A program made the translations under genes and the position numbers. Shown here one piece after another: positions 1,251-39,072 of a DNA stretch of 44,681 bases. The DNA lies in contig NZ_FNFZ01000030.1 in assembly GCF_900101015.1 (NCBI RefSeq), forward strand, positions 1-44,681. Reading direction: 5' to 3'. Source of the stretch: Sarcina sp. DSM 11001 (GTDB taxonomy: Bacteria; Bacillota; Clostridia; Lachnospirales; Lachnospiraceae). The stretch's first letter is position 1. Each line of letters begins with the position of its first letter. The notes under the pieces were generated by a model, which searched no databases, was not told where the DNA came from, and was given only the letters and a program-made list of their open reading frames with translations.

Positions 1251-1324
1251 GGGACGGTCCTTTTGTGTCCGTCCCCTTGTTTATGTCAGTGTAAACAAGG
1301 GGACAGATATAAAAGGACCGTCCC
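1251..1324. repeat. REP-like unit pair in inverted orientation
   Basis: Two 32-bp arms (1251-1282 and 1293-1324) face each other across about 10 bases. Arm 1 reads GGGACGGTCCTTTTGTGTCC and continues GTCCCCTTGTTT. The other arm is its reverse complement with three changes, all of which would be G-U pairs in RNA. The same core recurs at 3050, 37164, 37206, 38452 and 38911-39072. It is a BIME-like arrangement, probably mobilised by the RAYT at 37526-38344. Confidence 0.8.
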
Positions 1325-1359
1325 TCTGTTTTCACAAATGGAACAGGCTTGCTAAACCA

Positions 1360-1427
1360 CCGCCTTTAGGCGGAATCACAATAATGCCCTGGAGGGGCTA
1401 ACTCAAACCACCAGCGGAGCTGGTGGT
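1360..1427. repeat. Three consecutive hairpins, possible IS200/IS605 end remnant
   Basis: Three compact palindromes follow one another: 1360-1373 (CCGCC-TTTA-GGCGG), 1386-1398 (GCCC-TGGAG-GGGC) and 1407-1427 (9-bp stem ACCACCAGC/GCTGGTGGT with a 3-nt loop). Subterminal hairpins of this style are typical of IS200/IS605 ends. No tnpA or tnpB coding sequence accompanies them, so this would be a relic. The assignment is tentative. Confidence 0.35.
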
Positions 1428-1670
1428 CCTGACTTTGTGGTACCTGGCACGTAAACTCAAATTCCGCCTTGAAATCATAATCCTTCGTCTGCTAGAATGA
1501 AAATATCCAAAAGCATGTACAGGGGGCGGCAGGGCCTGCCCCCGCGTGCTTTGTCAGACCGGTGCCGCACCGCGGCGCTGCCGAAGTCTCATTATTCCAT
1601 GGGGCTCCGGCAGACCTGCATCCGCAGCACCGGAGCCCCTCCGCATACAATTTTACTGCAGGAGGTGCAT

Positions 1671-2906
1671 ATGACAAAGAACACCGACACCATAAGCACA
1701 CAGAAAGCAGCTTCCGCGGCCGGGAAGGCTGCCCTTTCCGGCGCGGATATACTGCAGCCGGCACAGTATGATGCTCTCAGCAAGGCAGGATTGCCGACGC
1801 TGCGCTCCGCCTTTCCACAGTACAGGGAGCTTGCAGAAGTCCTTCAGGAAATTGCCGCATCCCCGGAGATGACCGGCACTTTCCGGTCCCTGACACCCTC
1901 CCGCCGGCAGGAGTTTCTGGACTTCTGCTGCGGTAACAGGGGCGTGCGCGTCCTCTATGATTCCTATTTCAAATATGTGTTTGACCCGGATGTACAGGCC
2001 GCGGCGCTTTCCCGCATGATCTCCGTTCTGATCGGACTGGATGTAAAGCTGGTACAGATCCTCCCCAATGAATCCCACCTGGGGGCGGATTACACACTGG
2101 TCATCATGGACATCATAGTGGAGGCGTCTGACGGGAGCATCGTGAACGTCGAAGTCCAGAAGATCGGATACAATTTCCCCGGGGAGCGGGCAGCCTGCTA
2201 TAATGCGGACCTGCTCCTGCGCCAGTACCAGCGGATCCGTAAGGAATTCTCCGAAAATGACAGTCCGCAGGAGGGTGACGGAAACAGGGAAGAAGACAGG
2301 GAGGGTAAAAAGGGGACATTCAGCTACAAATATATCCGACCTGTATACACTATCGTGTTTATGGAGACTTCCACGAAGGAATTCCACAGATTCCGGCAGG
2401 ATTACATCCACACCTTCGCCCCTGTTTCAGATACCGGCCTGAAGCTGAATCTCCTGCAGAACTACATTTTCGTCCCCCTCGATATTTTCCGGAGCCATCT
2501 TGATGCCCTGCTCCGCCCTGCGGGCGGGCAGCCCATGACGGAAAAAGAGGCCTGGCTTGCCTTCCTGTCCTCCGATGACCCCCGGATCATCCTTAGGATC
2601 CTGGAGGACTATCCCGGCATCTTCCGTCCGTTATACGACAGGATCTGCACAATGTGCCAAAACACGAAGGAGATGATGCACATGTTCTCAGAAGAACTCT
2701 CCATCCTGGACAAAAATACGGTTATGATGATGATCGAAGAGCAGCAGGAAACCATCGAACAACAGAAGCAGGAGCTGTCGCATCAAAAACAGGAACTGTC
2801 ACAGAAAGACAAAACCATTGGCCAACAGAAGCGGGAGCTTTCACAGCAGAAACAGGAAATCGAGTATCTCCGCAGGGAGCTGGAGAAAGCCCTGCAGAAA
2901 AAATAA
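1671..2906 (+). CDS. PD-(D/E)XK nuclease family transposase-like protein (Rpn/PDDEXK_2 type)
   Basis: 411 residues. The start ATG at 1671 follows a GCAGGAGGTGCAT ribosome site, and the longer open frame upstream lacks one. The middle (about residues 90-270) has the fold signature of the PDDEXK transposase/Rpn nuclease family: YDSYFKYVF, then D147 in MDIIVEASDG and E161-x-Q163 in VNVEVQK, followed by ERAACYNADLLLRQY. Rpn proteins are known as DNA endonucleases linked to recombination and phage defence. The C-terminal 60 residues are a coiled coil built from a repeated heptad (QQKQELS, HQKQELS, QQKRELS). A charged stretch (GDGNREEDREGKK) interrupts the domain near residue 200. It stands alone with REP-like repeats on both sides and terminators downstream. 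Its activity as transposase or defence nuclease cannot be told from sequence. Confidence 0.75.
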   Translation: MTKNTDTISTQKAASAAGKAALSGADILQPAQYDALSKAGLPTLRSAFPQYRELAEVLQEIAASPEMTGTFRSLTPSRRQEFLDFCCGNRGVRVLYDSYFKYVFDPDVQAAALSRMISVLIGLDVKLVQILPNESHLGADYTLVIMDIIVEASDGSIVNVEVQKIGYNFPGERAACYNADLLLRQYQRIRKEFSENDSPQEGDGNREEDREGKKGTFSYKYIRPVYTIVFMETSTKEFHRFRQDYIHTFAPVSDTGLKLNLLQNYIFVPLDIFRSHLDALLRPAGGQPMTEKEAWLAFLSSDDPRIILRILEDYPGIFRPLYDRICTMCQNTKEMMHMFSEELSILDKNTVMMMIEEQQETIEQQKQELSHQKQELSQKDKTIGQQKRELSQQKQEIEYLRRELEKALQKK

Positions 2907-2977
2907 AACCGGTTTCTTCTTAATCCTGTTTACCAACAGGACAGAAGAAAGTGAAGAAGATTGACAGAAACACAAGG

Positions 2978-3019
2978 AAATGGCCGGGAATCTGTCCCTC
3001 GTGGGACACCCGGTCATTT
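2978..3019 (+). terminator. Intrinsic terminator after the PDDEXK gene
   Basis: An interrupted long stem (AAATG-CCGGG-GTCCC, loop TCGT, GGGAC-CCCGG-CATTT) is followed by a T-rich tail (CTTTTG). A second hairpin lies just upstream at 2913-2950 (TTTCTTCT and TCCTGTT with complements), without a T-run. Together they should close the upstream unit. Confidence 0.65.
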
Positions 3020-3049
3020 CTTTTGTGCGCCGGGCATGGCGTAGTCTGC

Positions 3050-3111
3050 GGGGACGGTTCTTTTGTATGGACCAGGGTGGACCAGGGGACGGTTCCCCGG
3101 TCCGTTTTTTT
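3050..3111 (+). repeat. REP-like sequence ending in a terminator hairpin
   Basis: 3050-3067 repeats the REP core (GGGGACGGTTCTTTTGTA). The adjoining 3079-3104 folds as GGACC-A-GGGGA/TCCCC-GGTCC with a short loop and runs into seven Ts (3105-3111). This REP-derived segment may therefore act as an intrinsic terminator ahead of the polyphosphate operon promoter. Confidence 0.6.
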
Positions 3112-3132
3112 CGATAGAAATTACCCCGCGCT

Positions 3133-3165
3133 TTCAATCTTTCTTCAATCTACCTCCTTTACAAT
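3133..3165 (+). promoter_or_regulatory. Predicted OmpR-type regulated promoter of the VTC operon
   Basis: TTCAATC occurs at 3133-3139 and 3144-3150, an 11-bp period with a 4-base gap. This is the geometry bound by tandem OmpR/PhoB-type regulators. TACAAT at 3160-3165 fits a -10 box, 16 bases from the second repeat start to the -10 start. No good -35 is visible, as expected where an activator overlaps it. The promoter at 9068-9100 has the same parts at the same spacing. The likely regulator is the OmpR-type protein at 6959-7642. Confidence 0.65.
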
Positions 3166-3189
3166 GTGCCCAACAACTGTAAAGGAGGT
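3152..3189 (+). promoter_or_regulatory. Inverted repeat spanning -10 box and ribosome site
   Basis: A perfect 12-bp inverted repeat (ACCTCCTTTACA at 3152-3163, TGTAAAGGAGGT at 3178-3189) has a 14-base loop. The left arm overlaps the -10 box and the right arm is the ribosome binding site AAAGGAGGT. In read-through transcripts the hairpin would hide the ribosome site and, with the T-rich tail, could terminate. Transcripts starting at the local promoter would contain only the right arm and be translatable. Confidence 0.55.
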
Positions 3190-3196
3190 TATTTTT

Positions 3197-3874
3197 ATGG
3201 ATCCGAAATACAGACATGAATGGAAACATGTTCTGAATACCGGGGATCTGCTGATCCTGCGGCAGCGGCTGCGGGCCGTCATGGAGAGCGATCCTCACGC
3301 GATCGATGGAAAGTATTATATACGAAGCCTGTACTTTGATAATCCCGATGACAAAGCCCTGCGGGAAAAGATCGACGGTGTCAATATGCGGGAAAAATTC
3401 AGAATCCGGCTCTATAACTGCGATTCTTCTGTGATCCACCTGGAGAAGAAAAGCAAGAGGAACGGGCTTGGAACCAAATATTCCGCCGTCTTGACTGCGG
3501 AACAGGCGCAGAAGATCGTAGACGGCGATATTGACTGGATGCTCGGTTCCGACCACCCTCTGATCCAGGAGCTGTACTGCAAGATGCGGTATCAGGGAAT
3601 GCGGCCGAAAACCATCGTGGATTATACCAGGGAGCCCTTTATTTTCCGTCCGGGGAACGTCCGGGTGACCCTGGATTACGATATCCGGACCGGGCTCGGG
3701 TGTACAGATTTCCTGAATCCGGACGCCGTCACGATCCCTGCCGGGGATGCGCCGATCCTCATTGAAGTAAAGTGGGATGAGTTCCTTCCCTCGATCATTC
3801 GGGACCTGGTTTCCATACCGGACCGGCGGGTCGGCTCTTTTTCCAAATACGCGCAGTGCCGTATTTACGGCTGA
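3197..3874 (+). CDS. VTC-domain polyphosphate polymerase-like protein
   Basis: 225 residues. The ATG at 3197 lies 7 bases after AAAGGAGGT, and the longer open frame upstream runs through the promoter and is rejected. The protein is essentially one VTC domain: RHEWKHVLN near the N terminus, YYIRSLYFDNP, the basic strand HLEKKSKRNGLGTKYS, VDYTREPF, and the acidic metal-site strand LIEVKWDEFLP near the C terminus. In yeast the VTC tunnel domain makes polyphosphate from ATP. Bacterial stand-alone versions are usually annotated as polyphosphate polymerase-domain proteins, and their product is not settled. It heads an apparent operon with DUF4956, a beta-helix surface protein and a two-component system. 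That gene order recurs in gut Clostridia (from memory, not searched). Confidence 0.85.
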   Translation: MDPKYRHEWKHVLNTGDLLILRQRLRAVMESDPHAIDGKYYIRSLYFDNPDDKALREKIDGVNMREKFRIRLYNCDSSVIHLEKKSKRNGLGTKYSAVLTAEQAQKIVDGDIDWMLGSDHPLIQELYCKMRYQGMRPKTIVDYTREPFIFRPGNVRVTLDYDIRTGLGCTDFLNPDAVTIPAGDAPILIEVKWDEFLPSIIRDLVSIPDRRVGSFSKYAQCRIYG

Positions 3875-3948
3875 TGAAATAGTATTCAGAATAATGAAGC
3901 AGTATTCAGAAGAATAAATTCAGATAATCAAAAAAAGGAGAGTTTACC

Positions 3949-4620
3949 ATGACATTTTCAGATATCTTTAAATCCAGCTTTCTTACAAACGTGACCAGTG
4001 TCAGTCTTCTGGACATGGTGCTTGCCCTGGTCCTGGCCTTCGGTGTCGGCCTTTTCGTATTTTTTATTTATAAAAAGACATACTCAGGAGTGATGTATTC
4101 CTCTTCCTTCGGCATGACGCTGATCGCCCTGACGATGATCACGACCCTGGTCATTCTGGCCGTAACGAGCAATGTGGTGCTGTCCCTGGGTATGGTCGGC
4201 GCCCTGTCCATCGTCCGTTTCCGGACAGCGATCAAGGAGCCCATGGATATCGCCTTCCTGTTCTGGTCCATTGCTGTTGGTATTGTGCTGGGAGCAGGCC
4301 TGATCCCGCTGGCGGTCTTTGGCAGCGTCGTGATCGGCATCATCCTGCTGGTATTTGCCAACCGCAAGGACAGCTCCAATCCCTATATCGTTGTCCTCTC
4401 CTGTGAGGGGAACGAGAGCGAGAAGGCGGCAGCGGCATATCTTGCGCAGCAGACAAATAAATGCATCGTCAAGAGCAAGACCGCGCGGAAGGGCAGTGTG
4501 GAGCTGAACATGGAAGTCCGCCTGAAGGACGACAACACTGACTTCATCAACAAGCTGGCAGACCTGCCCGGCGTGCAGAACGCAGTACTTGTGAGCTATA
4601 ACGGCGATTACATGGGATAA
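3949..4620 (+). CDS. DUF4956-family membrane protein
   Basis: 223 residues, preceded by AAAAAAGGAGAG. Four hydrophobic segments (about residues 22-42, 53-78, 94-112 and 113-132) contain the conserved loop GMVGALSIVRFRTAIKEP, characteristic of DUF4956 proteins. A soluble C-terminal domain (about residues 143-223) follows with an alpha/beta pattern (YIVVLSCEG, VELNMEVRLKDD, LPGVQNAVLVSYNGD). Its partner is the VTC protein 74 bases upstream, and the two families are found together repeatedly. The membrane part could form a channel or scaffold for the polymer made by the VTC domain, but this is inference. The stop at 4620 is followed 12 bases later by the GTG of the next gene, so translation is probably coupled. 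Confidence 0.8.
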   Translation: MTFSDIFKSSFLTNVTSVSLLDMVLALVLAFGVGLFVFFIYKKTYSGVMYSSSFGMTLIALTMITTLVILAVTSNVVLSLGMVGALSIVRFRTAIKEPMDIAFLFWSIAVGIVLGAGLIPLAVFGSVVIGIILLVFANRKDSSNPYIVVLSCEGNESEKAAAAYLAQQTNKCIVKSKTARKGSVELNMEVRLKDDNTDFINKLADLPGVQNAVLVSYNGDYMG

Positions 4621-4632
4621 GGAGGAGACCAG

Positions 4633-6918
4633 GTGTCTACGCACAAAAACATCGACAGAATATGTGTTGTCGTACTCGTGCTGACGCTTCTTGTGACTGT
4701 GGCCTTCATGAATGGTGAAAAGCTGGGAATCAGGGTAGTTGCGGATGAAGATGCGGAGTCTTACAGCGGCAGTACATATTTTACAGAAAATGATGTGGAC
4801 GGAGACTGGGCGGATAACGCATATACGACCTATATCACCCTGGATGGCTCCGGGGGAACGATCGACGGTAACGGGGCCTATTTTCTGGACGGAGATCTTG
4901 TGATCTCAAATGGCGGGTGGTACGTACTCACCGGTACCCTGGAGGATGGAAAGATCATCGTGGACGCCCATGATTCCTCCAAGGTCTGGATCCGGCTGAA
5001 CGGCGTGACGGTCAGCTGCTCCGATGATGCCTGTCTGCGGGTCGATCAGGCAGACAAGGTCTTCCTGACCCTGGCGGAGGATACGGAGAACTCTTTCACC
5101 AGCGGGACTGTCTACTCCGAGGAGGCGCTGGCGGACAATACCGGCGGCACGATCTTTTCCCATGATGATCTGACCATCAACGGCAGCGGCAGTCTGTCGA
5201 TTACGGCGGGATATAAGCATGGCATCGACGTCAATGATTCTCTCGTCATCACCGGGGGAAATATCACGATCACAGCGCCCCAGGACGGCATCCATGTGAG
5301 TGACAGCCTGCGCTTTATGGAGGCTTCACTGACCATAGACGCAGGAGATGACGCGGTGCACAGCGACGATGAACTCTACATTGAGAGCGGCACTGTTCTC
5401 ATCAATTCCTGCTATGAAGGCCTCGAAGCGGTGACCATCGAGATCACCGGAGGCGACATTACGATGTATCCCACCGATGACGGCATCAACGCCAATGGCG
5501 GCAGCAGCACGATGGGGTTCGGCGGCCGGGGAGGCGGCGGAACAAATGGAATGCCTTCTCCTCCGGATTTTTCTGACAGGGATATGTCATCCATGTCGAA
5601 TACCTCGGAGGGCGGAATGCCTTCGATGCCGGGAGAAATGTCCGGAACGACATCAACAGACGGAGAGATGTCCGGGATGCCCTCTCAGGGAGAAATGTCT
5701 TCGATGCCGGGAGAAATGTCCGGAACGACATCAACAGACGGAGAGATGACCTCCGGGATGCCCTCTCAGGGAGAGATGCCTTCGATACCGGGAGAAATGC
5801 CCGGAACGACATCAACAGACGGAGAGATGACCTCCGGGATGCCCTCTCAGGGGGAGATGCCTTCTACACCCGGAGAGATGCCCGGAGCGGCCCAGACAGA
5901 GAACAGTGATACTGACGATACTGCGACCGATGAAAAAGAACCATATATCCGCATCAGCGGCGGTACATTGACGATCATCAATGCGACCGGCCGGGACGCG
6001 GACGGCCTTGATTCCAACGGAAGCATCTATATTGACGGCGGAGACATCCGCATCAGCCTCCTGGGAGACGGCACGAACAATGCCATTGATTACGGCAGTG
6101 AGAGCGGGGGCGAATGTATCGTTACCGGCGGCACAATTCTGGCCTTCGGAGGATCCGGTATGGCAGAAGAGTTCAGCGAAAACTGTACGCAGTGCGCGGT
6201 CCTTTACAACATCGGCTCCACTGTGGAGGCGGGGACCCTGTTCAGCCTTTTGGATCAGGAGGGTGAGGAGATCATCTCCTATACACCTGAATGCAGTTAT
6301 TCTTCCGTGTCCTTCAGCCTGCCGGAAATGACGGTCGGGGAGACTTATACCGTCGTCTGCGGTGAAAACAGCAGTGAACTGACAATGGATTCAACCGCTG
6401 TGTCTGCAGGCACCACTGCCGGTGAAAAAATCGGCGGCAATGCCGGCGGTCATGCCTTCGGTATGGGCGGCATGGGCGGTATGCGGCGAGGCGGTATGGG
6501 CTTTCAAAATGGAAGCGCGGAAAATGGAAGCGTGGAAAATGGAAGCGCAGAAAATGGAAGCACGGAAAGTGGAAGCACGGAAAGTGGAAACCCGGAAAAC
6601 GGCAGCACAGAAAGTGGAAGCGCGGAAAGTGGAAACTCGGAAAACGGAAGCGCAGAAAGTGGAAGCACGGAAAGTGGAAGTGTGGAAGCAGAAGTGAATG
6701 AAACAGGTTACGGACACAGAACCCGGCCGGCAGGAGACCAGGCAGGGGGGAAGGGATTCATTCCGGAAGGCGCTGCTGACACAGAGGATCAAGTGACAGA
6801 ATATAGTGGATTTACGGCCTTAAGTGAATTCAGCAGCGAAGTCTGGCTCCTCCTAGGAGCTTCCGTCCTTGCGCTGATTGCGGCAATATTGTTTGCAAAG
6901 TACTATCGGAAGCACTAA
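4633..6918 (+). CDS. Cthe_2159/DUF4353-type beta-helix carbohydrate-binding surface protein
   Basis: 761 residues from a GTG start (4633) with GGAGGAGACCAG upstream. An N-terminal membrane segment (about residues 9-27) serves as signal or anchor. A right-handed beta-helix with short repeating strands follows (GGWYVLTGTLEDGKIIVDA, DDLTINGSGSLSITAGYKHG, DGIHVSDSLRFMEASLTIDAGDD at about 80-290). A low-complexity linker (about 320-425) is built from PSMPGEMSGTTSTDGEM-like units, then the helix resumes (IRISGGTLTIINATGRDADG). A second repetitive tract (NGSAENGS, ESGSTESG) occupies about 615-690. A C-terminal membrane helix (about 735-756) ends in basic residues. No LPxTG motif is seen. Cthe_2159 was reported to bind acidic polysaccharides. 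Here the protein is probably displayed on the cell surface with its helix exposed. Confidence 0.8.
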   Translation: MSTHKNIDRICVVVLVLTLLVTVAFMNGEKLGIRVVADEDAESYSGSTYFTENDVDGDWADNAYTTYITLDGSGGTIDGNGAYFLDGDLVISNGGWYVLTGTLEDGKIIVDAHDSSKVWIRLNGVTVSCSDDACLRVDQADKVFLTLAEDTENSFTSGTVYSEEALADNTGGTIFSHDDLTINGSGSLSITAGYKHGIDVNDSLVITGGNITITAPQDGIHVSDSLRFMEASLTIDAGDDAVHSDDELYIESGTVLINSCYEGLEAVTIEITGGDITMYPTDDGINANGGSSTMGFGGRGGGGTNGMPSPPDFSDRDMSSMSNTSEGGMPSMPGEMSGTTSTDGEMSGMPSQGEMSSMPGEMSGTTSTDGEMTSGMPSQGEMPSIPGEMPGTTSTDGEMTSGMPSQGEMPSTPGEMPGAAQTENSDTDDTATDEKEPYIRISGGTLTIINATGRDADGLDSNGSIYIDGGDIRISLLGDGTNNAIDYGSESGGECIVTGGTILAFGGSGMAEEFSENCTQCAVLYNIGSTVEAGTLFSLLDQEGEEIISYTPECSYSSVSFSLPEMTVGETYTVVCGENSSELTMDSTAVSAGTTAGEKIGGNAGGHAFGMGGMGGMRRGGMGFQNGSAENGSVENGSAENGSTESGSTESGNPENGSTESGSAESGNSENGSAESGSTESGSVEAEVNETGYGHRTRPAGDQAGGKGFIPEGAADTEDQVTEYSGFTALSEFSSEVWLLLGASVLALIAAILFAKYYRKH
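5623..5890 (+). repeat. In-frame tandem repeats in the surface protein gene
   Basis: Units start at 5623, 5701, 5782 and 5863 (periods 78, 81 and 81, all multiples of 3), each encoding PSxPGEMxGTTSTDGEMxSGMPSQGEM in pieces. A second repetitive tract (6508-6690) is built from 12-base GGAAGC-type units. Both keep the reading frame, so changes in copy number would alter protein length only. Confidence 0.85.
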
Positions 6919-6958
6919 AATATCAGAAAGTCTACTTTTAGCAAAAGGCGGTGACATC

Positions 6959-7642
6959 ATGCGGGTACTTCTGGCTGAAGATGAAAAGAGAATGGCAGCG
7001 GCCCTGGCAGCCCTGCTGAAACAGGAAAAATATGACGTTGACCATATGGAAGACGGAATATCGGCCCTCGCTGCGCTGGAGAGCGGTGTTTATGATATAG
7101 CTGTTCTCGACGTGATGATGCCCGGGATGAACGGCTTCGAGGTGGCCCGCAGAGCCAGAGGCAAGGGAATCAGGACACCCATCCTGATGCTGACAGCGAA
7201 AAGTCAGCTGGACGACAAGGTCACCGGTCTGGACAGCGGCGCGGATGATTATCTGACCAAGCCTTTTCAGAGCAAAGAGCTTCTGGCCAGACTCCGGGCC
7301 CTGGGACGCCGGAATGCTGGTTTTCAGGATAATAGTCTGAGCTACGGAGACCTGTCCCTGGACACCTCGAAGGCTGTGCTGACCTGTCAGACTACAGGAC
7401 AGAGTGTGAGACTCGGGGAAAAGGAGCTTCGGATCCTGGAGTACATGTTCGGTAATAAAGGGCAGATCATGACCAGGGAGCAGCTCGCCGTGAAGATCTG
7501 GGGCTTTGAAAATGAAGCGGAATACAATAACGTGGAGGTCTATATGTCTTTCACGAGGAAGAAGCTGGCCTTTGTCGGCTCCAGGGTCGGGATCAAGGCT
7601 GTGCGCGGCCTGGGTTATGAATTGAGGATGAAAGATGTTTAA
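6959..7642 (+). CDS. OmpR/PhoB-type response regulator
   Basis: 227 residues. The ATG at 6959 begins MRVLLAEDEKRM, and the longer frame overlapping the previous gene is less likely. The ribosome site is modest (GGCGGTG). The receiver domain (residues 1-120) has the acidic pair E7/D8, phospho-acceptor D51 in AVLDVMMPG, T79 and K101 in LTKPF. The winged-helix DNA-binding domain (about 130-225) shows LGEKELRILEYM, QIMTREQLAVKIWG and VRGLGYEL. The sensor kinase gene overlaps its end by 8 bases. The likely targets are the two 11-bp-period direct repeats at 3133-3150 and 9068-9085, which have the geometry this family binds. It would then regulate its own operon and the glycosidase operon downstream. 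Confidence 0.93.
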   Translation: MRVLLAEDEKRMAAALAALLKQEKYDVDHMEDGISALAALESGVYDIAVLDVMMPGMNGFEVARRARGKGIRTPILMLTAKSQLDDKVTGLDSGADDYLTKPFQSKELLARLRALGRRNAGFQDNSLSYGDLSLDTSKAVLTCQTTGQSVRLGEKELRILEYMFGNKGQIMTREQLAVKIWGFENEAEYNNVEVYMSFTRKKLAFVGSRVGIKAVRGLGYELRMKDV

Positions 7643-8936
7643 CCGGTCCAGAAAAAAGATCATACTGTCGATCATGGGATCACTCATCCTGCTTTTCTCT
7701 GTCACACTGTCTGTGATCCTGGCCGCAAGTTTCCGGGAAGTGCGGCACAGAAACAGTAAGATGCTGGAGCATTATGTGCAGACGTACTCACTGGAGCAGC
7801 AGACCGGGATGAACGCTCCGGAACAGCAGACTGCCGGACAGAATATACCTGCGCACAAACCTGTTCATGAATCCGACAGACAGGAAATGCAGGGACCTCC
7901 GCTGGATCCTGGCAAGCCCCCGATGGACGAAAGGCCGGATTATAAGCTCTCCACCTTCTACTCGGTGGCTTTGTCCGGGGAGGGCGAAGTTCTTGCTGTT
8001 GACAATGGAAAAAACGCTGTCTATGAGGAGAATGCCCTGGCAGAACTGGCAAAAACCATACTGGATGGAAATACTTCCTCCGGGCGGATCGACAATCTTT
8101 TTTATATGGTAAGCTGCAGGGACGGATATACCCTGGTGGCCTTTATGGACAATACGGTTTCAGAGGGCGGACTGCACACCCTGCTCCGCACTGTCCTGAT
8201 CGTAGGCGGCGTATCGATCGTCCTGCTGTTTTTTATCTCTCTTTTTCTTTCAAAACGGATCATCCAGCCTCTGGAAGAAAATGACCGGCAGCAGAAGCAG
8301 TTCATCTCTGATGCCGGCCACGAATTAAAAACTCCTGTGGCTGTGATCAGCACCAATGCGGAAATGCTGGCCAGAGAGCTTGGTGAAAATGAGTGGCTTT
8401 CCAATATCCAGTATGAAAATGAACGCATGGGAGACCTTGTGAAACAGCTGCTGGACCTCTCCAGAGCGGAAAACACGGAAGCGCCCATGGAAACGGTCGA
8501 TCTGTCCCGCCTTGTCACCGGGGAAGTGCTTGCCTTTGAAAGCCTGGCTTTTGATCAGGGAAAAATGCTTCGAAGTGATATCGATGACGGGATCAGTATT
8601 ACAGGCGATCAGGCCCGGCTTACCCAGCTTACATCCATCCTGCTGGACAATGCGGTCAGACACTCAACAGGCAGTGAGATCGAAGTGTCCTTAAAGCGCG
8701 AGGGTCACTTGGCTGTGCTCAGCGTGGTCAATGAGGGCAGTGAGATCCCGCCCGATAAACTGGACCGCCTCTTTGACCGCTTCTATCGGGTCGATGAAGC
8801 CCGGAGCGATGAAGGAAATCATTACGGGCTGGGCCTTTCTATAGCAAAGGCAGTTGCGGAAAAGCACGACGGCAGCATTTCGGCCGCCTGCCAGGATGGA
8901 AAGATCCGCTTCTCCGTATCGATTCCTGAAAAATAA
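7635..8936 (+). CDS. Sensor histidine kinase, partner of the upstream regulator
   Basis: 433 residues. The start ATG lies inside the end of the regulator gene (8-base overlap), indicating coupled translation. A first membrane helix (about 9-30), an extracellular region (about 31-175) rich in Gln, Pro and charged residues, and a second helix (about 180-203) precede the kinase core. The phospho-acceptor is H229 in SDAGHELKTP. The ATPase domain has the N box LTSILLDNAVRH, a D-box region with RLFDRFYRVDEAR and the G box GLGLSIAKAVAEKH. HAMP-like sequence after the second helix is very short. The extracellular part is not a domain I recognise, and what it senses is unknown; phosphate, cell-wall or polymer signals would fit the operon. 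Confidence 0.93.
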   Translation: MFNRSRKKIILSIMGSLILLFSVTLSVILAASFREVRHRNSKMLEHYVQTYSLEQQTGMNAPEQQTAGQNIPAHKPVHESDRQEMQGPPLDPGKPPMDERPDYKLSTFYSVALSGEGEVLAVDNGKNAVYEENALAELAKTILDGNTSSGRIDNLFYMVSCRDGYTLVAFMDNTVSEGGLHTLLRTVLIVGGVSIVLLFFISLFLSKRIIQPLEENDRQQKQFISDAGHELKTPVAVISTNAEMLARELGENEWLSNIQYENERMGDLVKQLLDLSRAENTEAPMETVDLSRLVTGEVLAFESLAFDQGKMLRSDIDDGISITGDQARLTQLTSILLDNAVRHSTGSEIEVSLKREGHLAVLSVVNEGSEIPPDKLDRLFDRFYRVDEARSDEGNHYGLGLSIAKAVAEKHDGSISAACQDGKIRFSVSIPEK

Positions 8937-8949
8937 TAAATAAAGATGG

Positions 8950-8969
8950 CTCTTCCGCACCTGGAAGAG
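8950..8969 (+). terminator. Weak terminator after the kinase gene
   Basis: A 7-bp stem (CTCTTCC/GGAAGAG) with a 6-base loop is followed by ACTTTATC, only a short T-tract. It probably gives partial termination; the stronger hairpin at 9089-9129 lies downstream. Confidence 0.45.
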
Positions 8970-9038
8970 ACTTTATCATCAGGAATCACTAATTCTGGGA
9001 AAGATAACTGCAAAACACTACTGTTTGCGGAAGAACCA
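8967..9038. repeat. Dispersed ~75-bp repeat, copy 1
   Basis: This segment matches 12781-12862 over most of its length (GAGACTTT.TC.TCAG, ATCAC.AATTC, GGAAAGAT, GCAAAA, CTGTTTGCGG.AGAA), with an 11-base insertion in the other copy. Both copies can fold a small hairpin from GCAAA and TTTGC. It is non-coding and flanks signalling genes in both places. Confidence 0.65.
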
Positions 9039-9067
9039 TAAAGATACCTGGAAAAAATAAATAAAAC

Positions 9068-9100
9068 TTCAATCTTGTTTCAATTAATCTCCCTTACAAT
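9068..9100 (+). promoter_or_regulatory. Second OmpR-type regulated promoter
   Basis: TTCAATC (9068-9074) and TTCAATT (9079-9085) have an 11-bp period, followed by TACAAT (9095-9100) at the same 16-base offset as in the promoter at 3133-3165. It should transcribe the phosphodiester glycosidase gene at 9239 with a leader of about 130 bases. The match in sequence and spacing argues for one regulator acting on both. Confidence 0.65.
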
Positions 9101-10985: not shown

Positions 10986-10997
10986 TGACGCTGCATT

Positions 10998-30234: not shown

Positions 30235-30265
30235 ACTCGAATTTTGAATTGGGAGGTAATGTTTG

Positions 30266-32578: not shown

Positions 32579-32761
32579 GGTGAAGGATCGGCTGACCAGC
32601 CGACGCAGAGCCGATGTAGAATGACTAACTGACTGGAAGCGGACTGCCATATTGACAACTGATTGAAAAACCAGCTGAAAATTGACTGAAAACTGATTGA
32701 AAAACCAGCTGAAAACGGACTGAAAACTGATTGAAAAAACAGCTGAAAACGGACTGTAAAG
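32579..32761 (+). repeat. 34-bp tandem repeat after the M13 gene
   Basis: AACTGATTGAAAAAMCAGCT units begin at 32657, 32691 and 32725 (period 34). They fill the space between the stop codon and the terminator. The stretch 32579-32656 shows nothing clear. Confidence 0.8.
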
Positions 32762-32800
32762 AAAAAACGGATCTCCTCTTGCCTGGGAGATCCGTTTTTT
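32762..32800 (+). terminator. Bidirectional intrinsic terminator
   Basis: AAAAAACGGATCTCC (32762-32776) and GGAGATCCGTTTTTT (32786-32800) form a perfect 15-bp stem with a 9-base loop, followed by more Ts. It serves the M13 gene and, from the other strand, the convergent Na/Pi transporter gene. Confidence 0.9.
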
Positions 32801-32888
32801 TTATCCGTACGATAGGGTGTAAGCAGGATGTTACTTGATTTGATCGTTCTGAGGAACCGCTCTGAGGAACCGCTCTCAGACATCGGTA

Positions 32889-34766
32889 TCAGGCATCATC
32901 AAAATCCCGTACAGCTGCCGATATGACCTGTCCCGGCTGAGCAGGGGCAGCATTTTCTTTTTCCACTGAAGTGACAGCTGAGAGCTGCTCAAAGTACTCG
33001 TCGCGGGCTTTGAGATATGCACGGTTGTAGTTGGGATCTTCATGCCGCAGATCCCGGAAATAGTGGTGCTCTTTGTCCGCCAGTTCAGGGCGGACGCGGA
33101 TGACGACGGATTCACCGACGTTGGAACTGACATCCGCGATCCTCATCATATCGGAGAGAAGATTTTCAAAGTTGGGATCGAGAAAGACATTACATTGTCC
33201 GCGGCTCATGCGGCTGAGATGATTGTCCTTGAGCTCCCCGATCAGGTCCGCAGTGACCTTTCGCAGAGGCTGGATGTGATAAGCGGCATCGAGGTCGCGC
33301 TTTCCGAAGGCAATTTCTGTCTCGTCCAGGATTTTTTCCAGCAGCGAGTACAGGACATTCAGCTCTGACATGGCAATACTTGAAAAAGCAGTGTCTTTTT
33401 CACTCATGGACCGGGCGTTGTTGGCGATATTGACGGCGTGGTCACCCAGGCGCTCGAACTCTGAAAAGACCTTGTAATACTGGTTCAGGATGGCGACGTG
33501 GAGACTGTCTTTGAGATGAGGCAGGAGGGCGACCAGGTAGCCGCTGATGCGGTCCGCGAACATGTCGATATTTCCTTCATCCTCATTGATCAGATCATAG
33601 ACGTCTTCCTCGTAATCGGTCAGCAGTCCATAAGCCCGGGAGATGTTTTCTTTTGCAAGCTGGAGCTGGGTCATCAGGATGTCGTAACAGCTGTTGAGGG
33701 CCAGTGCGGGTGTGGCAAAGAAGACGGGGTTGAGGGCATCCAGTTTGTCCTGGTATTTGTTCTCCACGACGGGTTCATCCTTGACGATCTTCCGGCTGAG
33801 CTTCTCAAAGACCGGGACCATGGGAATGAGCACCAGGGCGCAGGCGAGATTGAAGATCGTGTTCGTGTTGGCAATCAGACTCGAGTTGAGGGTGGCGTCC
33901 CAGATCCAGTCGAGCAGTCCCAGGGACCGCACGACCGCCACGACGATCAGCACCAGGGCCGACTTGCTCAAATTATAGAGGATGTTGACAATACCGACCC
34001 GGCCTGCTTCCGGCCGGGCGCCGATGGAACAGACGATCGCGGTCGTCACACAGTCTCCCAGATAAACACCGACGATGACCGGGTAGATGGCGTGCCAGAT
34101 CAGGAGTCCGGAGGAGGAGAAGGCCTGCAGGATACCGATGGTCGCCGAGGAGCTCTGCAGTACGAAAGCAATACCGGCACCGGTCAGATAGCCTGCCAGA
34201 GGATTGTTCCCCAGTCCCGCGAAAAGGTCCTGGACGAGGGGGGATTCCGCGAATGAGCTCACGGCGCTGGTCATGTTCAGCAGGCCGGAGAACAGGATAC
34301 CGAATCCGATGGCGATACTGCCGATGGTCCGCGCATTGCTGAAACGTTTGCTCCCCGTCATGATGATAATGATGCCGATGATCAGCGCGATCGGCGCCAG
34401 GGAGGAAGGCTGGAAGATCCGCAGCCAGGAACCCTTCTCAGCGTTCATATCGAGAAGTCGGATGATCTGTCCGGTAACAGTCGTGCCGACATTTGCGCCG
34501 ATGATAATACCGAGTGACTGGTGCAGGGTCAAAAGACCTGCGCCCACGAGACCGGAGGTAATTACGATCGTCGCGGTCGATGACTGGATGATCGCAGTGA
34601 CAGCCAGACCCAGTAGAAAGGCTTTAAAGACATTGTTTGTCACCGACTCCATGATCTGCTTGAGCGTTCCGGATGAACTCTCTTTGAGTCCGTCCCCCAT
34701 CAGCCGCATTCCGTACAGGAACATGGCGAGGCCGCCCGCCAGCGTTAATACATTGAAAAAATCCAT
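32889..34766 (-). CDS. Na/Pi cotransporter family protein with C-terminal PhoU domain
   Basis: 625 residues from the ATG at 34766, chosen because GGAG lies six bases before it; an ATG four codons earlier lacks a site. The membrane part (about 1-320) contains the two inverted QSS repeats of the NptA/PNaS family (AIIQSSTATIVIT and FVLQSSSATIGIL) with GANVGTTVTG and GVYLGDCVTTA. The C-terminal part (about 350-560) is a PhoU-like helical bundle (FERLGDHAVNIANNARSM). The protein should import phosphate with sodium, with PhoU providing control. It is the only phosphate transporter in the window and may feed the VTC polymerase at 3197; that link is inference. Confidence 0.93.
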   Translation of the reverse strand: MDFFNVLTLAGGLAMFLYGMRLMGDGLKESSSGTLKQIMESVTNNVFKAFLLGLAVTAIIQSSTATIVITSGLVGAGLLTLHQSLGIIIGANVGTTVTGQIIRLLDMNAEKGSWLRIFQPSSLAPIALIIGIIIIMTGSKRFSNARTIGSIAIGFGILFSGLLNMTSAVSSFAESPLVQDLFAGLGNNPLAGYLTGAGIAFVLQSSSATIGILQAFSSSGLLIWHAIYPVIVGVYLGDCVTTAIVCSIGARPEAGRVGIVNILYNLSKSALVLIVVAVVRSLGLLDWIWDATLNSSLIANTNTIFNLACALVLIPMVPVFEKLSRKIVKDEPVVENKYQDKLDALNPVFFATPALALNSCYDILMTQLQLAKENISRAYGLLTDYEEDVYDLINEDEGNIDMFADRISGYLVALLPHLKDSLHVAILNQYYKVFSEFERLGDHAVNIANNARSMSEKDTAFSSIAMSELNVLYSLLEKILDETEIAFGKRDLDAAYHIQPLRKVTADLIGELKDNHLSRMSRGQCNVFLDPNFENLLSDMMRIADVSSNVGESVVIRVRPELADKEHHYFRDLRHEDPNYNRAYLKARDEYFEQLSAVTSVEKENAAPAQPGQVISAAVRDFDDA

Positions 34767-34979
34767 GATAGTCTCCATTATATCGTATATCGGCCATTAT
34801 TCAGAAATAAACGGCACCATATACACACTTTGTTTCAGAAACGAAAAAAACCAACTTCTAACTTACAGGAATTTTTGTCAATAGTCAATGGAATGTCAGG
34901 CGGAAAGCTGTACGAAAAAACATCTAAAGACCTTCTCTGGTTATATGCTGCCGAATGTGTAAGCGAATCCCGTTTTTTT

Positions 34980-37070
34980 TCAGCGGGAGATCAGGACAGC
35001 GCTTTCACGGGGGCCAAGGGTAAACCTGGACGAAACGATGAGCGGAGGTTCTTCTCCGGCCGGGAAGGAGATGCCTTTGGAGCTGCAGACAAGGTGCCAT
35101 TTCAGGCCATTGGGAATGCCGGGCAGGTCAAAGGTGTGCTCCTCCCAGTGCGCATTGACCAGGATATAGAGAAAGGCGTCTTTTTCGGTTTTGTATTTTA
35201 CATGATCCTCGGCGTAGAGGACGGCAAAGTAGAGGGCGGGAGCCTGCGGATCGATCTCCCACGGGGTGAGGGAATGGAAGGAGAGCTCAGGAAAGCCTGT
35301 TCCGTTTACACTGTCATCAAAACGGGGAGCACGCAGAACGGGGTGCGCGGCGCGCAGCGCAAGGAGTGTCTTTACATACTCATACAGGTTCTGATACTCG
35401 TTAAGGCGGTTCCAGTTGAGCCAGGAGATCTCATTGTCCTGACAGTAGGCATTGTTGTTTCCGCACTGTGTGTTGCCGAATTCATCTCCGGCCAGGAGCA
35501 TCGGCACACCGCGGCTTGTGAGCAGCAGGGTGTGGAAGTTGAGGATCTGCCGCATCCGGAGGTCCCGGATGCCGGGATCATCAGTTTCGCCCTCCGCGCC
35601 GCAGTTCCAGCTGTCATTGCAGTCAGACCCGTCACGGTTACCCTCTCCGTTTGCTTCATTGTGTTTTTCGTTATAGGAGACCAGATCATACATCGTGAAA
35701 CCGTCGTGGCAGGTGATGAAATTGACCGACGCCGCAGGTCCCCGTCTGGCATAGATATCCCCCGAGCCCGCGATGCGGTTGTAGAGCTCAGGCGCACAGC
35801 TTTCGTCTCCCTTGATGAAACGCCGCACACAGTCCCGGTACTTACCGTTCCATTCCGACCAGCGGTTCCAGGAGGGGAAATTACCGACCTGATACAGACC
35901 GCCGGCATCCCAGGCCTCCGCGATCAGCATAGTACTGCCCAGTACGGCGTCATTGGCCAGGGTCTCGATCAGGGGCGGGGACATCATGGGCCTGCCTTTT
36001 TTATCCCTTGTCAGGATAGAGGCGAGGTCGAAACGGAAGCCGTCGATGTGATAGGAGGACACCCAGTAACGCAGACAGTCCAGGATGTGGTTCCTGACAA
36101 CGGCATTATTGCAGTTCATGGTATTTCCGCAGCCGCTGAAATTGACATACGTACCGTCGGGAGACAGCAGGTAATAGGTGCGGTTGTCAATGCCCTTGTA
36201 GGATATGACAGTTCCGTTTTCATCCCCCTCCGCCGTGTGATTGAACACGACATCCAGAATGACCGCGATTCCGTTCTGATGGAGCTTTTTGACCAGATTC
36301 TTGAGCTCGTCGACCTCCATCCCAAAGGGACCCGATGCCGCGTAACCGGCCTTGGGCGCGAAAAAACAGACCGTCGAATAGCCCCAGTAATTAAAAAGAG
36401 TCCTGCCGTCCATTTCACGGGCATGCTCACGTTCGTCAAAAGCAAAGACAGGCATCAGTTCGATACAGTTTATACCCAGGGACTGGAGATAAGGAATCTT
36501 TTCCACGATCCCGGCAAAAGTCCCACGGTATTTGATGCCGCTCGAAGGATCCTGGGTAAATCCCCTGACATGCATCTCATAAATGACCAGATCCTCCATC
36601 GGGATTTCAAGGGGCTTGTCGCCCTCCCAGTCATAATCCTCCCTGATAATATGTCCCCTGTATAAAAAGGGCATCTCCGCCGCCAGCTCCTGATCCACTG
36701 CACTCCTGCCGGAGACAGACTTGGCGTAGGGATCCAGCAGGATATGCCTGCGGTCAAAGAGCAGACCTGCACCCGGATCATAGACACCGTCGAAGCGGTA
36801 AGCGTATTCTGTCGTCTCGATGGTGATGCCGAACACCATCATCGTGTAGACGTTACCTATCCGGAATTCCTCCGGAAAAGGGATCTCGGCAAAAGGCTCC
36901 TCTTCCCCGATATTGAACAGCACAAGAGTACAGGCTGTCGCTTCTTTGGAAAAAATGCTGAAGTTCACAGCTCCATCTTCGATCAGTGTCGCCCCGAAAG
37001 GCATCACCCTGCCGACCCTGTACAGCAGACCGTTTATTTCATTTGTAGGAAAAGTGTCCACCAACTGCAT
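34980..37070 (-). CDS. Glycogen debranching enzyme (GH13, isoamylase/GlgX type)
   Basis: 696 residues. It hydrolyses alpha-1,6 branches of glycogen or related glucans. A carbohydrate-binding N-terminal domain (about 15-160) precedes the GH13 barrel. The catalytic residues are D348 in GFRFDLAS, E385 in IAEAWD and D456 in CHDGF. VIYEMHVRGFTQDPSSG and ILDVVFNHTAEGDENG are the debranching-type conserved regions. NYWGYSTVCFFAPKAGY and the C-terminal beta-domain complete it. GTGAAAGGAGTTCAAAA is the ribosome site. No other glycogen gene lies alongside, so its operon is not glycogen-specific. It is downstream of the RAYT element region on the same strand. Confidence 0.93.
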   Translation of the reverse strand: MQLVDTFPTNEINGLLYRVGRVMPFGATLIEDGAVNFSIFSKEATACTLVLFNIGEEEPFAEIPFPEEFRIGNVYTMMVFGITIETTEYAYRFDGVYDPGAGLLFDRRHILLDPYAKSVSGRSAVDQELAAEMPFLYRGHIIREDYDWEGDKPLEIPMEDLVIYEMHVRGFTQDPSSGIKYRGTFAGIVEKIPYLQSLGINCIELMPVFAFDEREHAREMDGRTLFNYWGYSTVCFFAPKAGYAASGPFGMEVDELKNLVKKLHQNGIAVILDVVFNHTAEGDENGTVISYKGIDNRTYYLLSPDGTYVNFSGCGNTMNCNNAVVRNHILDCLRYWVSSYHIDGFRFDLASILTRDKKGRPMMSPPLIETLANDAVLGSTMLIAEAWDAGGLYQVGNFPSWNRWSEWNGKYRDCVRRFIKGDESCAPELYNRIAGSGDIYARRGPAASVNFITCHDGFTMYDLVSYNEKHNEANGEGNRDGSDCNDSWNCGAEGETDDPGIRDLRMRQILNFHTLLLTSRGVPMLLAGDEFGNTQCGNNNAYCQDNEISWLNWNRLNEYQNLYEYVKTLLALRAAHPVLRAPRFDDSVNGTGFPELSFHSLTPWEIDPQAPALYFAVLYAEDHVKYKTEKDAFLYILVNAHWEEHTFDLPGIPNGLKWHLVCSSKGISFPAGEEPPLIVSSRFTLGPRESAVLISR

Positions 37071-37163
37071 TTTTGAACTCCTTTCACCTTTTTCGTAAAT
37101 ATTGAAAATATTTTAGCATGATAAAAGGCTGAGAGACAAGAGCAGGACACACGGGGGACACAC

Positions 37164-37260
37164 GGGGACGGTTCTTTTGTGTCTGTCCCCATGTTTTGTG
37201 GTCTGCGGGGACGGTCCTTTTGGGGACACACGGGGATGTTTCTTTTGTATCCGTCTCCCG
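37164..37260. repeat. REP-like units beside glgX-type gene
   Basis: Unit 1 (37164-37196) reads GGGGACGGTTCTTTTGTGTC and continues TGTCCCCATGTTT. A degenerate unit (37206-37252) has GGGGACGGTCCTTTTGGGG and a TGTTTCTTTTGTATCCGTC variant. Both are in the orientation opposite to those at 38452. Confidence 0.75.
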
Positions 37261-37266
37261 CAGGCT

Positions 37267-37442
37267 GTCCGAAGCCCCAGGTTATATATCCGTCCTCTGC
37301 GGGCTGTCCGAAGACCTGGGTTATGTATCTGTCCTCTGTGGGCTGTCCGAAGCCCCAGGTTATGTATCCGTCTCTCGCAGGCTGTCCGAAGCCCCAGGTT
37401 ATGTATCCGTCTCCCGCAGGCTGTCCGAAGACCCAGGTTATC
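37267..37442. repeat. 39-bp tandem repeat (about 5 copies)
   Basis: GTCCGAAG begins at 37267, 37306, 37345, 37384 and 37423, an exact 39-base period, with CCCAGGTTATGTATCCGTCT in each unit. There are no unique spacers, so it is not a CRISPR array. Period and sequence give open frames in several readings, none credible. It lies between the REP units and the RAYT stop. Confidence 0.88.
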
Positions 37443-37525
37443 TAAGCTCAAAAGCCAGTGTTTATGCGACTTTTCCTGGGCGTAAAAAAGGTTATCGGAC
37501 AGTCTCCCCATGTTTTCGCATGCTT

Positions 37526-38344
37526 TTATTCCTTTTTTGTTTTGATAGTGCGATAGATAATCGTTCGACTGCATCCGGTAATCCGGCTGATCTGAGTAAT
37601 GGCTGCTCCCCTGGCATACATCTCTTGTAACAGGCGGTTGCGTGCAGGACGGTCAAGTGCCTGAAAGGCGGCTGCAGAAGTAATATTGTGCTGTTTGACA
37701 AGATAATCCCTGATTTCTGCATCACTCTTGTGCCGCACTTTTTCCGGGATATCAATAAAGCAGTCAGAGGTATCTTCGTTTGTGTATGCAATCAGCTCCT
37801 CCCGCGACAGGATTGAAAGTGCAAAATCCACATCCGTATGAAGAACAGGTGAAGCGCCAATATATTCCCGGTAACTGCTCGCGTAATACGCCTCGGGCTG
37901 CGCGCAGATCCCTGCCTTGATTGGGTTGCGGTGTATGTATCGCAGGGCCATCAGAAAATACGGATCACCATCGATCGGCTCACTTTTAAACCGATCCTGG
38001 AACAAGTGTCCGGTGCGCGCGTATTTGCGGTTAAAGAACATCACATACGATACACCCAGCCGTTTTATTGCCTGAGACAATGATTCCCCGGGACCCAGCT
38101 CAACTTCAGTATCGCCGATCCTGCATATACAGGGATTTCTGGCTCCATGCAGCAGCAGGTGTACATGATTATTCATCAGGCAATACCCGTACACCGCAAA
38201 ACCGCAGCGCAGCTTGTATTCATCCAGCAGTGTCAGAAACTTGTCCTTGTCCTCCCGATCTTCGAAAATTTCCTGCCGGTTAATGCCGCGTAACATTACA
38301 TGATAAATATTCGATTCTCCTGACTTCCTTGCGTGACGTCCCAT
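37526..38344 (-). CDS. REP-associated tyrosine transposase (RAYT, Y1_Tnp superfamily)
   Basis: 272 residues from the ATG at 38344, preceded by GGAGGATGGATGC; the longer open frame reads back into REP sequence and is rejected. The IS200-like Y1 domain has IYHVMLRGINRQEIFED, the HUH motif H60-V-H62 (LMNNHVHLLL), KYARTGHLFQDRFKS and RYIHRNPIKAG with Y136 as the probable nucleophile. The C terminus (about 205-268) is a helix-turn-helix-like tail (ITQISRITGCSRTIIYRTI), common in RAYTs. These enzymes cut and join single-stranded REP hairpins. The element is bounded by inverted REP units, and further copies are spread over the window. Confidence 0.9.
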   Translation of the reverse strand: MGRHARKSGESNIYHVMLRGINRQEIFEDREDKDKFLTLLDEYKLRCGFAVYGYCLMNNHVHLLLHGARNPCICRIGDTEVELGPGESLSQAIKRLGVSYVMFFNRKYARTGHLFQDRFKSEPIDGDPYFLMALRYIHRNPIKAGICAQPEAYYASSYREYIGASPVLHTDVDFALSILSREELIAYTNEDTSDCFIDIPEKVRHKSDAEIRDYLVKQHNITSAAAFQALDRPARNRLLQEMYARGAAITQISRITGCSRTIIYRTIKTKKE

Positions 38345-38451
38345 GCATCCATCCTCCATGTAAATTATTATATTCATATAGATTGCATTTTTGATTGCTC
38401 CATCGCGGTATGAAGATGTTAAAAGAAAAACATATGAAGTTGTTAAACAAA

Positions 38452-38520
38452 AAACAGGGGACAGACACAAAAGGACCGTCCCCACAGACCGTCCCCACAG
38501 ACCGTCGGACAGTCTCCGCA
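38452..38520. repeat. REP-like units upstream of the RAYT gene
   Basis: AAACAGGGGACAGACACAAA begins at 38452 and the unit ends GGACCGTCCCC (38483); short ACAGACCGTCCCC duplications follow (to about 38520). The orientation is inverted relative to 37164. Confidence 0.75.
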
Positions 38521-38578
38521 AATAAAAAACGACCAGACAGGGGCATGAAAAAACTGGAAAATATATTCGCGCCCTCAA

Positions 38579-38890
38579 TCTGATCGTATAGTTTAAAATA
38601 GAAATATACGAATGATTTCATTCCTGTGGAAAAGATTATCACACTTCAGTATTCCTTACAAGAGCGAGAAAAAACACATGTCAGATATATTTGCCGAACC
38701 AGATTTGCTGAACAAATATGCTGGAACTGAGCAAAAACGAGCTTAAGAAAGGAAAAACGTTTGTACATTTACGGCAAAAACGATAAAAACAGCAAAATGC
38801 TTATGGAAAGCAAATTCACTATTGCTGATCCGTAAATCAGCATAGATAATAATACTGAGCATATCGCCACGTTAACAGCAGAATAGACAT
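38579..38890. other. A+T-rich gap with a short orphan reading frame
   Basis: 312 bases, much richer in A+T than neighbours. An ATG at 38679 opens 23 codons (MSDIFAEPDLLNKYAGTEQ and four more) and then stops. This reads like the start of a longer gene now lost, but no ribosome site or partner is visible. Nothing else is supported. Confidence 0.35.
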
Positions 38891-38910
38891 TCAGATGGGC
38901 ATCTGCGTGT

Positions 38911-39072
38911 CAGAAAATAAACAGGAGGACAGACACGAAAGGACCGTCCCGTTGTTTCCAGAAAGTAAACAGGGGGACAGACACGAAAGGACCGTCCCGT
39001 TGTTTCCACACGTGTCAGAAAGTAAACAGGGGGACAGACACGAAAGGACCGTCCCGTTGTTTCCCCCTGTTT
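38911..39072. repeat. Triple direct REP-like array in front of the sugar kinase gene
   Basis: Three units (starting 38911, 38959 and 39016) each read CAGAAARTAAACAGGRGGAC and go on AGACACGAAAGGACCGTCCC to GTTGTTTCC. They share one orientation, unlike the inverted pairs elsewhere. The third is followed by CCCTGTTT so that AAACAGGGGGA and TCCCCCTGTTT can close an 11-bp stem just 14 bases before the kinase start codon. Confidence 0.85.

Follow-up and report, generated by a model that had tools for sequence, protein, structure and literature searches.

Among the Y1 transposases related to the enzymes of repetitive extragenic palindromes (REPs), the group termed TIRYT is already known to be accompanied by GGGG-type terminal inverted repeats (TIRs). 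As far as the accessible passages of Di Nocera 2013 (PMC3733652) go, these TIRs are dispersed in moderately abundant copies, as dimers or clusters, and some of them are partly or wholly self-complementary. The REP-associated tyrosine transposases (RAYTs) of subclass 2.1 probably correspond to the same group, according to Quentin 2018 (PMC6006769, available portions), whose survey gives in those portions no REP-like sequences for this subclass. The present study concerns a 44,681-nucleotide stretch of Sarcina sp. DSM 11001 (contig NZ_FNFZ01000030.1, positions 1 to 44,681; hereafter the window), which carries a RAYT-type gene together with copies of a short repeat. We find that the repeat is a hairpin whose tip is common to many RAYT loci and whose stem varies from locus to locus with its pairing kept. 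Relative to the accessible parts of these two papers, the new element is that one tip is shared while the stems covary and are specific to the enzyme, and this in a subclass reported to be without REP-like partners. This combination was not found in the literature searched, in which the figures of PMC3733652 were not covered.

The enzyme of the window (P0001) is a RAYT-type Y1/HUH transposase of 272 amino acids, encoded on the minus strand at 37529-38344 (Y1_Tnp, E 6.2e-13). H60, H62, Y136 and N140 are invariant in alignments of 15 and 27 sequences, and P141 is also invariant; the protein carries the HUH motif and the catalytic tyrosine with Y-NP that mark a RAYT (class 2 TnpAY1). The larger alignment drew on 26 of the 80 loci from named genomes described below, with the proteins of L141, L143, L146, L152, L165, L176, L197 and L203 left out, only L146 being demonstrated to hold a stop. 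The motifs of subclass 2.1/TIRYT are present, namely NHVH, FQ and YIHRNP (Y[IV]HxNP), and a C-terminal helix-turn-helix (HTH_23) is weakly recognizable (E 2e-4, below the Pfam cut-off), as it is at E ≤ 0.01 in 8 of the 27 aligned proteins. Judged by motifs, length and C-terminal helix-turn-helix, P0001 thus appears to fit TnpAY1 subclass 2.1/TIRYT. Its predicted fold (pLDDT 90.8, pTM 0.71) is best matched by 4ER8, the structure of a RAYT in complex with a REP hairpin (E 2e-6; TM 0.70 by target, 0.44 by query), followed by the transposases of ISDra2 and IS608; by sequence, the PDB gave no match at E 0.001. As in the low-copy, non-insertion-sequence RAYTs, the gene is single, with one P0001 match in its own genome. 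Its neighbors are an amylase-family gene and a PfkB kinase gene, not tnpB. The likeness to the TIRYT/TIRtron systems in the passages of PMC3733652 extends to the DNA, since both combine such an enzyme (NHVH, FQ, Y-NP, C-terminal helix-turn-helix) with flanking inverted repeats bearing a GGGG[AT][CG]A[CG]-like motif. In the window family, GGGGACAG stands on one side and GGGGACGG (7/8 of GGGGWSAS) on the other, in inverted flanks. Those passages do not mention a tip held in common on stems that covary enzyme by enzyme.

The repeat unit is a hairpin of about 29 nt, extending from -9 to +19 around a GGG. Its tip consists of GGG, a loop ACGGT and YCY, and its stem measures 6-7 bp. An earlier sequence-only reading of the window had described a core that is the tip plus the 3′ arm only; the 5′ arm sits at -9 to -3, and the hairpin with its common tip and locus-variable, covarying stem was unseen by that reading. 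The sequence before GGGACGGTYCT is complementary to the sequence after it, and both vary jointly between RAYTs. Thus, the stem at the RAYT is GACACA/TGTGTC in the window, AGCGCGC/GCGCGCT in genome G041, GTTGTCA/TGACAAC in G011, GGAGACAG/CTGTCTCC in G058 and G052, and TCACACAG/CTGTGTGA in G001. Folding, which covered seven stretches of which one (L127) is no unit, and pair counts indicate that the GGG of the tip is able to pair with its YCY, mostly as G.T, G-C and G.T, leaving the ACGGT loop; the pairs +1/+9 and +2/+8 are largely set by our search motif, and the only tip pair free of it (+0/+10) is G.T or G-C in 75 of 83 cases. An initial parse of the unit as GGGACGG/CCGTCCC was true of the window's A family, failed for the B family, and was replaced.

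We compared 97 RAYT loci, 17 from the genus and the best 80 of at least 540 confirmed loci in named genomes. The latter were found by a scan with the RAYT alignment and come mostly from Firmicutes, with some Bacteroidota and others. The motif searched for at these loci fixed GGGAC and restricted the letters permitted at the next five places, leaving the stem positions free. It lay within 450 bp of the RAYT at 84 of the 97 loci (11/17 in the genus, 73/80 in named genomes), a figure valid for close relatives because the named loci are the best 80 of at least 540. The motif flanked the enzyme in inverted orientation, upstream + and downstream -, at 65 of the 97 loci; by orientation there were 100 upstream +, 100 downstream -, 22 upstream - and 22 downstream + occurrences. 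Its density near RAYTs was 2.85/kb versus 0.34/kb more than 900 bp away (8-fold). The best unit paired at ≥4 of 6 arm positions in 73 of the 84 loci, among which there were 72 distinct 5′ arms. In contrast to the survey of PMC6006769, whose available portions give no REP-like hairpins for subclass 2.1, the tip motif thus stands at 84 of 97 RAYT loci and a pairing stem at 73. A few loci are near duplicates (the RAYT loci of RUG710/G014 and G060 are about 99% identical), and L062, counted with a poor motif match, is the same locus as L293, which has the variant tip GGGACAGGTACGC and arms paired at 5 of 6 positions.

The pairing of the two arms is specific to each locus. When positions -3 to -8 were set against +13 to +18, 359 of 504 were paired, versus 183 (sd 10.4, maximum 214) over 2000 swaps between loci. 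For covariation, we aligned one randomly taken unit per locus without gaps (84 rows, 83 distinct, 29 columns). The seven pairs joining -9 to -3 with +13 to +19 held standard pairs in 74.0% of cells versus 45.3% (sd 1.7) after shuffling, and 192 cells were altered on both sides versus 74.5 (sd 8.6). The corresponding covariation score was 0.687, against 0.208 (sd 0.021) for shuffled arms and 0.12-0.19 for arms slid by 1-3 columns. Stem similarity also followed protein similarity among 69 loci (4 of 73 proteins were left out for internal stops), with Spearman values of 0.23 (protein core) and 0.29 (tail), which none of 500 permutations reached. These two values are too alike to decide whether the helix-turn-helix reads the stem.

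The same tip recurs on dispersed repeat families. Counted with GGGGACGGTYCY, 17 of the 61 genus genomes hold at least 20 copies, up to 236, and reversed controls give 0 to 11. Unit listings for six high-copy genus genomes covered the stretches around the listed matches. Away from its RAYTs, G041 shows the shared tip on the stems CGCGC/GCGCG (25 units) and CACAC/GTGTG (22 units). Its first RAYT is flanked by the CGCGC stem. At its second RAYT, two upstream units read CTCACACAG-GGGACGGTTCT-CTGTGTGAG, the CACAC stem expected (an expectation not logged beforehand), with no unit downstream within 600 bp. G011 carries the families TGTCA/TGACA (52 units), AAACA/TGTTT (14 units, with weaker pairing and a 5′ arm conserved at 43-64%) and GAGAC/GTCTC (12 units). 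In Bacillus litorisediminis, which belongs to another class, the conservation of 88 units chosen by their tip alone spans -9 to +19 and stops there, and their stem TGAAACA/TGTTTCA is the stem at the genome's own RAYT. The RAYT stem therefore equals the stem of a dispersed family in G041 (2/2 RAYTs), G011 and Bacillus litorisediminis. Sixteen genomes picked via loci carrying the GGGACGGTYCY tip hold 6 to 196 copies of it each; the count is small or near its reversed control in G062 (6 versus 2), G075 (11 versus 10) and G070 (25 versus 17).

Unit edges also bear traces of processing. Some units adjoin tandem partial copies that start close to -9 and stop at different points. In the genus set 68 of 606 edges bear such copies, and in the 80 named loci 36 of 293 edges do, compared with 29/6448, 4/1138 and 7/4462 control GGG sites. 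The control sites likewise show start offsets of -3 to -16, partly owing to how duplications are picked, and the fixed start of the duplications therefore rests mainly on the longer ones. Junction ambiguity is ≤1 nt in 50 of the 68 and 26 of the 36 duplications, leaving little microhomology. Such tandem copies would result if the hairpin were cut at its foot and the 5′ end joined to one of various 3′ ends. Flank homology between copies tends to end at -7/-8, a picture that flanks matched in some copies and unmatched in others would also give.

Taken together, these observations point, with a probability of roughly 0.6, to the repeats being non-autonomous partners of the adjoining RAYT-type enzyme, which would mobilize them. 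The enzyme would bind the hairpin in single-stranded DNA, for example on the lagging strand. The tip may report strand identity to the enzyme, and it would be strand specific because its G.T wobbles turn into A-C mismatches on the opposite strand. The stem, for its part, would decide which repeat family belongs to which enzyme. The HUH/tyrosine site might then cut at the hairpin foot, and the joining of cut ends to nearby 3′ ends could spread the units. Such cutting and joining would leave the 5′-anchored partial tandem copies, which are present at 6-12% of unit edges.

Several observations weigh against this partnership. Much of the constancy of the tip is by construction, since the search motif fixed GGGAC and the following letters. 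The tip motif was missing at 13 of the 97 RAYT loci, and among 19 further new genus loci only L274 and L277 have the tip with a pairing stem. Among the 106 units of the window family, the 5′ arm is conserved at 48-71% per position and the 3′ arm at 82-93% except at +16, and in the unit to the right of the window's own RAYT (38463-38491) the 5′ arm is unpaired (1/6 by hand, longest run 1). For the AAACA and GAGAC families of G011, no RAYT with the corresponding stem was found. Tandem copies are rarer in Bacillus litorisediminis (5/88 edges), and slippage at the hairpin might be an alternative source of such copies. No empty site was found via the neighboring amylase gene, synteny on the RAYT side not being kept in the relatives compared. 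Furthermore, the RAYT link, strong when single loci are considered, is weak to modest between genomes: a P0001-like RAYT (E ≤ 1e-20) is present in 10 of 17 tip-rich versus 13 of 44 other genus genomes (p=0.044), under limits (E ≤ 1e-20; 20 copies) that were chosen after the counts were known. The tip-rich genomes G008, G010, G018, G027, G037, G050 and G055 hold no P0001-like RAYT at E ≤ 1e-20; some of these seven carry weaker Y1 matches. The check set by the sequence-only reading, that the core should recur elsewhere in the genome and be less common in genomes lacking the enzyme, is passed only weakly. The genome of the window has 106 cores versus 2 for the reversed pattern. Among relatives, G008 (66 cores, 92% complete) has no P0001 or NF047646 match, G027 (39 cores) has short IS200-like matches only, and G060, with a RAYT 76% identical to P0001, has 7 cores. 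Across the 61 genus genomes, the joint presence of RAYT and strict core is uninformative, because the families differ in stem.

The stem could instead be the footprint of target choice of an IS608-like kind: the element would bring along the 3′ arm as its guide, and base pairing with this guide would select the 5′ arm as target or cleavage sequence. What makes this reading attractive is that the arms lie exactly 15 nt apart, the spacing that we derive from the IS608 numbering (guide from +16, target ending at -1) in the accessible part of PMC5934647, and that GTAG selects cleavage sites, CT or CA, in one group-3 canonical REP member (PMC8266576, accessible part). Besides, 47 of the 84 5′ arms end in CA, RAYT cores 70-80% identical may carry different arms, and when units of the window family are chosen by the tip alone, conservation is higher in the 3′ than in the 5′ arm (G000, the window's own genome, 106 units; G008, 50; G014, 57), the 5′ consensus being the complement of the guide. 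However, the invariance of the 3′ arm is partly by construction where units were sorted by that arm, a step that dropped as "other" 19 units in G000, 3 in G008, 14 in G014, 15 in G011, 7 in G009 and 3 in G027. G000, G008, G014 and G027 were recounted without the sorting, and in G027 so counted the asymmetry is weaker. Both arms are conserved in G041, most of G011 and Bacillus, where the conserved block ends at -9 and +19. At the level of single units, the tracking of the one variable guide base fails (16/53 versus 13.1, p=0.16), 72 inverted pairs show no pattern of one matched and one random end (correlation about 0), and the tandem copies include the 5′ arm. The system does resemble IS200/IS605 elements (IS608, ISDra2) in its HUH/Y1 chemistry, strand-specific hairpins and 15-nt arm spacing. 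Those elements are multi-copy, with same-strand subterminal hairpins and a target at the left flank, whereas here the gene is single, the ends are inverted, no tnpB adjoins, pairing extends over 6-7 nt and the tip is shared. We regard a guide-and-target origin of the stem as unlikely.

A second possibility is that the hairpins spread or persist without the enzyme, as terminator-like or repair-generated palindromes or by slippage expansion, with the RAYT a bystander. The 236 and 140 copies of GGGGACGGTYCY in G008 and G027, where no P0001-like RAYT was found, would be in keeping with this, and so would tandem copies that begin at the hairpin foot, as hairpin slippage might produce them. Yet the absence of the enzyme from such genomes may reflect loss of the RAYT or gaps in draft genomes, and a bystander would hardly account for inverted flanking at 65 of 97 loci with locus-specific stems, for RAYTs that match the stems of their own genome's dispersed families, or for the scarcity of microhomology at the duplication junctions. 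Independence from the enzyme therefore seems rather improbable to us. That the system is a canonical REP/RAYT set, as the sequence-only reading proposed, is very improbable: a repeat family of short extragenic palindromes with inverted pairs and a RAYT-type Y1 enzyme with HUH and Y-NP is indeed present, but no conserved GT[AG]G foot emerges when 94 units are counted position by position (GTAG occurs somewhere in the flank of a few single copies only), the NCBIfam RAYT model NF047646 (REP_Tyr_transpos) scores 54.6 bits, under its cut-off of 80, and passes it in 3 of 61 genus genomes, and the common tip with variable stem and the C-terminal helix-turn-helix speak against it. The likeness to the REP/REPIN and RAYT systems of E. 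coli and Pseudomonas lies in the short, mostly extragenic hairpins, the inverted pairs, the single-copy Y1 enzyme and the best fold match, to 4ER8. The difference is that a GT[AG]G foot is constant in canonical REPs, whereas in the present units the tip is shared and the foot and stem change from locus to locus.

In the window itself, the core GGGACGGTYCTTTTGTGTC matches at 10 places with up to 3 mismatches (1251+, 1306-, 3051+, 37165+, 37208+, 37233+, 38464-, 38932-, 38980- and 39037-), and 100 shuffles gave a mean and a maximum of 0. All places named by the sequence-only reading are thereby covered. Its inverted pair at 1251-1324, its triple direct array (38911-39064) and the Y1 transposase between inverted copies with H60-V-H62 intact are borne out; its impression of a Clostridium-type genome is not, kinship placing the organism in the Lachnospiraceae by way of G014, a genome of the same genus that matches the public contig ONXK01000175.1 (uncultured Lachnospiraceae bacterium RUG710) at 100% identity over 2967 bases. 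Three copies, at 3051, 37208 and 37233, carry 2-3 mismatches, being truncated or degenerate. Left of the RAYT, on the plus strand, lie a hairpin unit at 37156-37184 (arms GACACA/TGTGTC, paired 6/6), a truncated unit of 5′ arm plus tip at 37199-37227, and a degenerate unit (GGGATGTTTCT) at 37224-37252. To the right, on the minus strand, the unit at 38463-38491 is inverted with respect to the left unit, and 38483-38504 is a partial tandem copy of its 5′ arm and the start of its tip; + copies thus stand to the left of the gene and - copies to the right. Farther away are three direct units with a common 5′ arm (GGAAACAAC) and differing 3′ extents at 38931-39064 (minus strand), a single degraded unit at 3042-3070 (plus strand) and a REPIN-like inverted unit pair at 1242-1333, of which 1243-1332 forms a single extended hairpin when folded as DNA (-31.2 kcal/mol, z -11.9). 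Across the genome (4.15 Mb, 76 contigs, 98.57% complete), 31 of 101 units fall in crudely called open reading frames, in DNA of which 77% counts as coding by these calls; the units are mostly extragenic. The window family thus presents palindromes of the 20-40 nt REP/REPIN size class, extragenic, in high copy and in inverted pairs. In its general form, a dispersed short repeat family, mostly extragenic and often inverted-paired, with a RAYT-type enzyme outside the Gammaproteobacteria, the sequence-only proposal stands.

Some further features were seen around these units. The RAYT is set apart from the hairpin units on its left by five copies of a 39-bp tandem repeat (37246-37441), which may derive from such a unit because the repeat starts with TGTATCCGTC, like the 3′ arm and the next bases of the adjoining degenerate unit. 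Beside the inverted pair at 1242-1333 lies a gene for a PD-(D/E)XK family transposase (PF12784; 1497-2906), and the stretch preceding this pair (taatgtcatt) recurs ahead of other units in the genome. Inverted unit pairs crowd a few contigs of this genome, with five pairs in 14 kb on C76 (L044; also C57, L043), perhaps a repeat-rich region. The RAYT loci of G014 (C283, L047) and G060 (C148, L049) share about 99% identity across some 3.3 kb, and their genomes hold 63 and 7 strict cores, respectively; near-identity despite differing core counts suggests a recent transfer or a shared contig. Seven genus RAYTs (L279, L282, L284, L287, L288, L061 and L059) are flanked by inverted ACCCCAGAGGTC or close variants and may have a tip of their own. 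Other partly or wholly self-complementary tips (GGGTCAGACCC, GGGACAGGTCCC or close) with paired stems occur at L163, L187, L190, L138, L150 and L158, possibly as further tip classes. An Rfam scan of the window gave no match at gathering thresholds. In the scan for close relatives, viral contigs gave none, plasmids gave 24 records, in 2 of which a single place covered ≥80%, and phages gave 1 record.

Beyond the partnership of repeat and enzyme, we tentatively raise the possibility of a DNA address code. One tip would be shared by all, and a short, interchangeable stem would assign each RAYT its family. The stem would be rewritten by compensating changes in its two arms faster than the protein changes, which would let several enzymes of one cell each serve a repeat population of its own. 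If this is true and the stem is read by base pairing, the result would be a natural, readdressable system of single-strand mobilization, with an address longer than the four bases of IS608. With the shared tip on covarying stems, subclass 2.1, which is large and was reported without REP partners, gains a definite candidate substrate. The enzyme-specific stems suggest how several RAYTs coexist in one genome, and a search rule built on tip and stem would find repeat families that surveys for a GTAG foot would miss.

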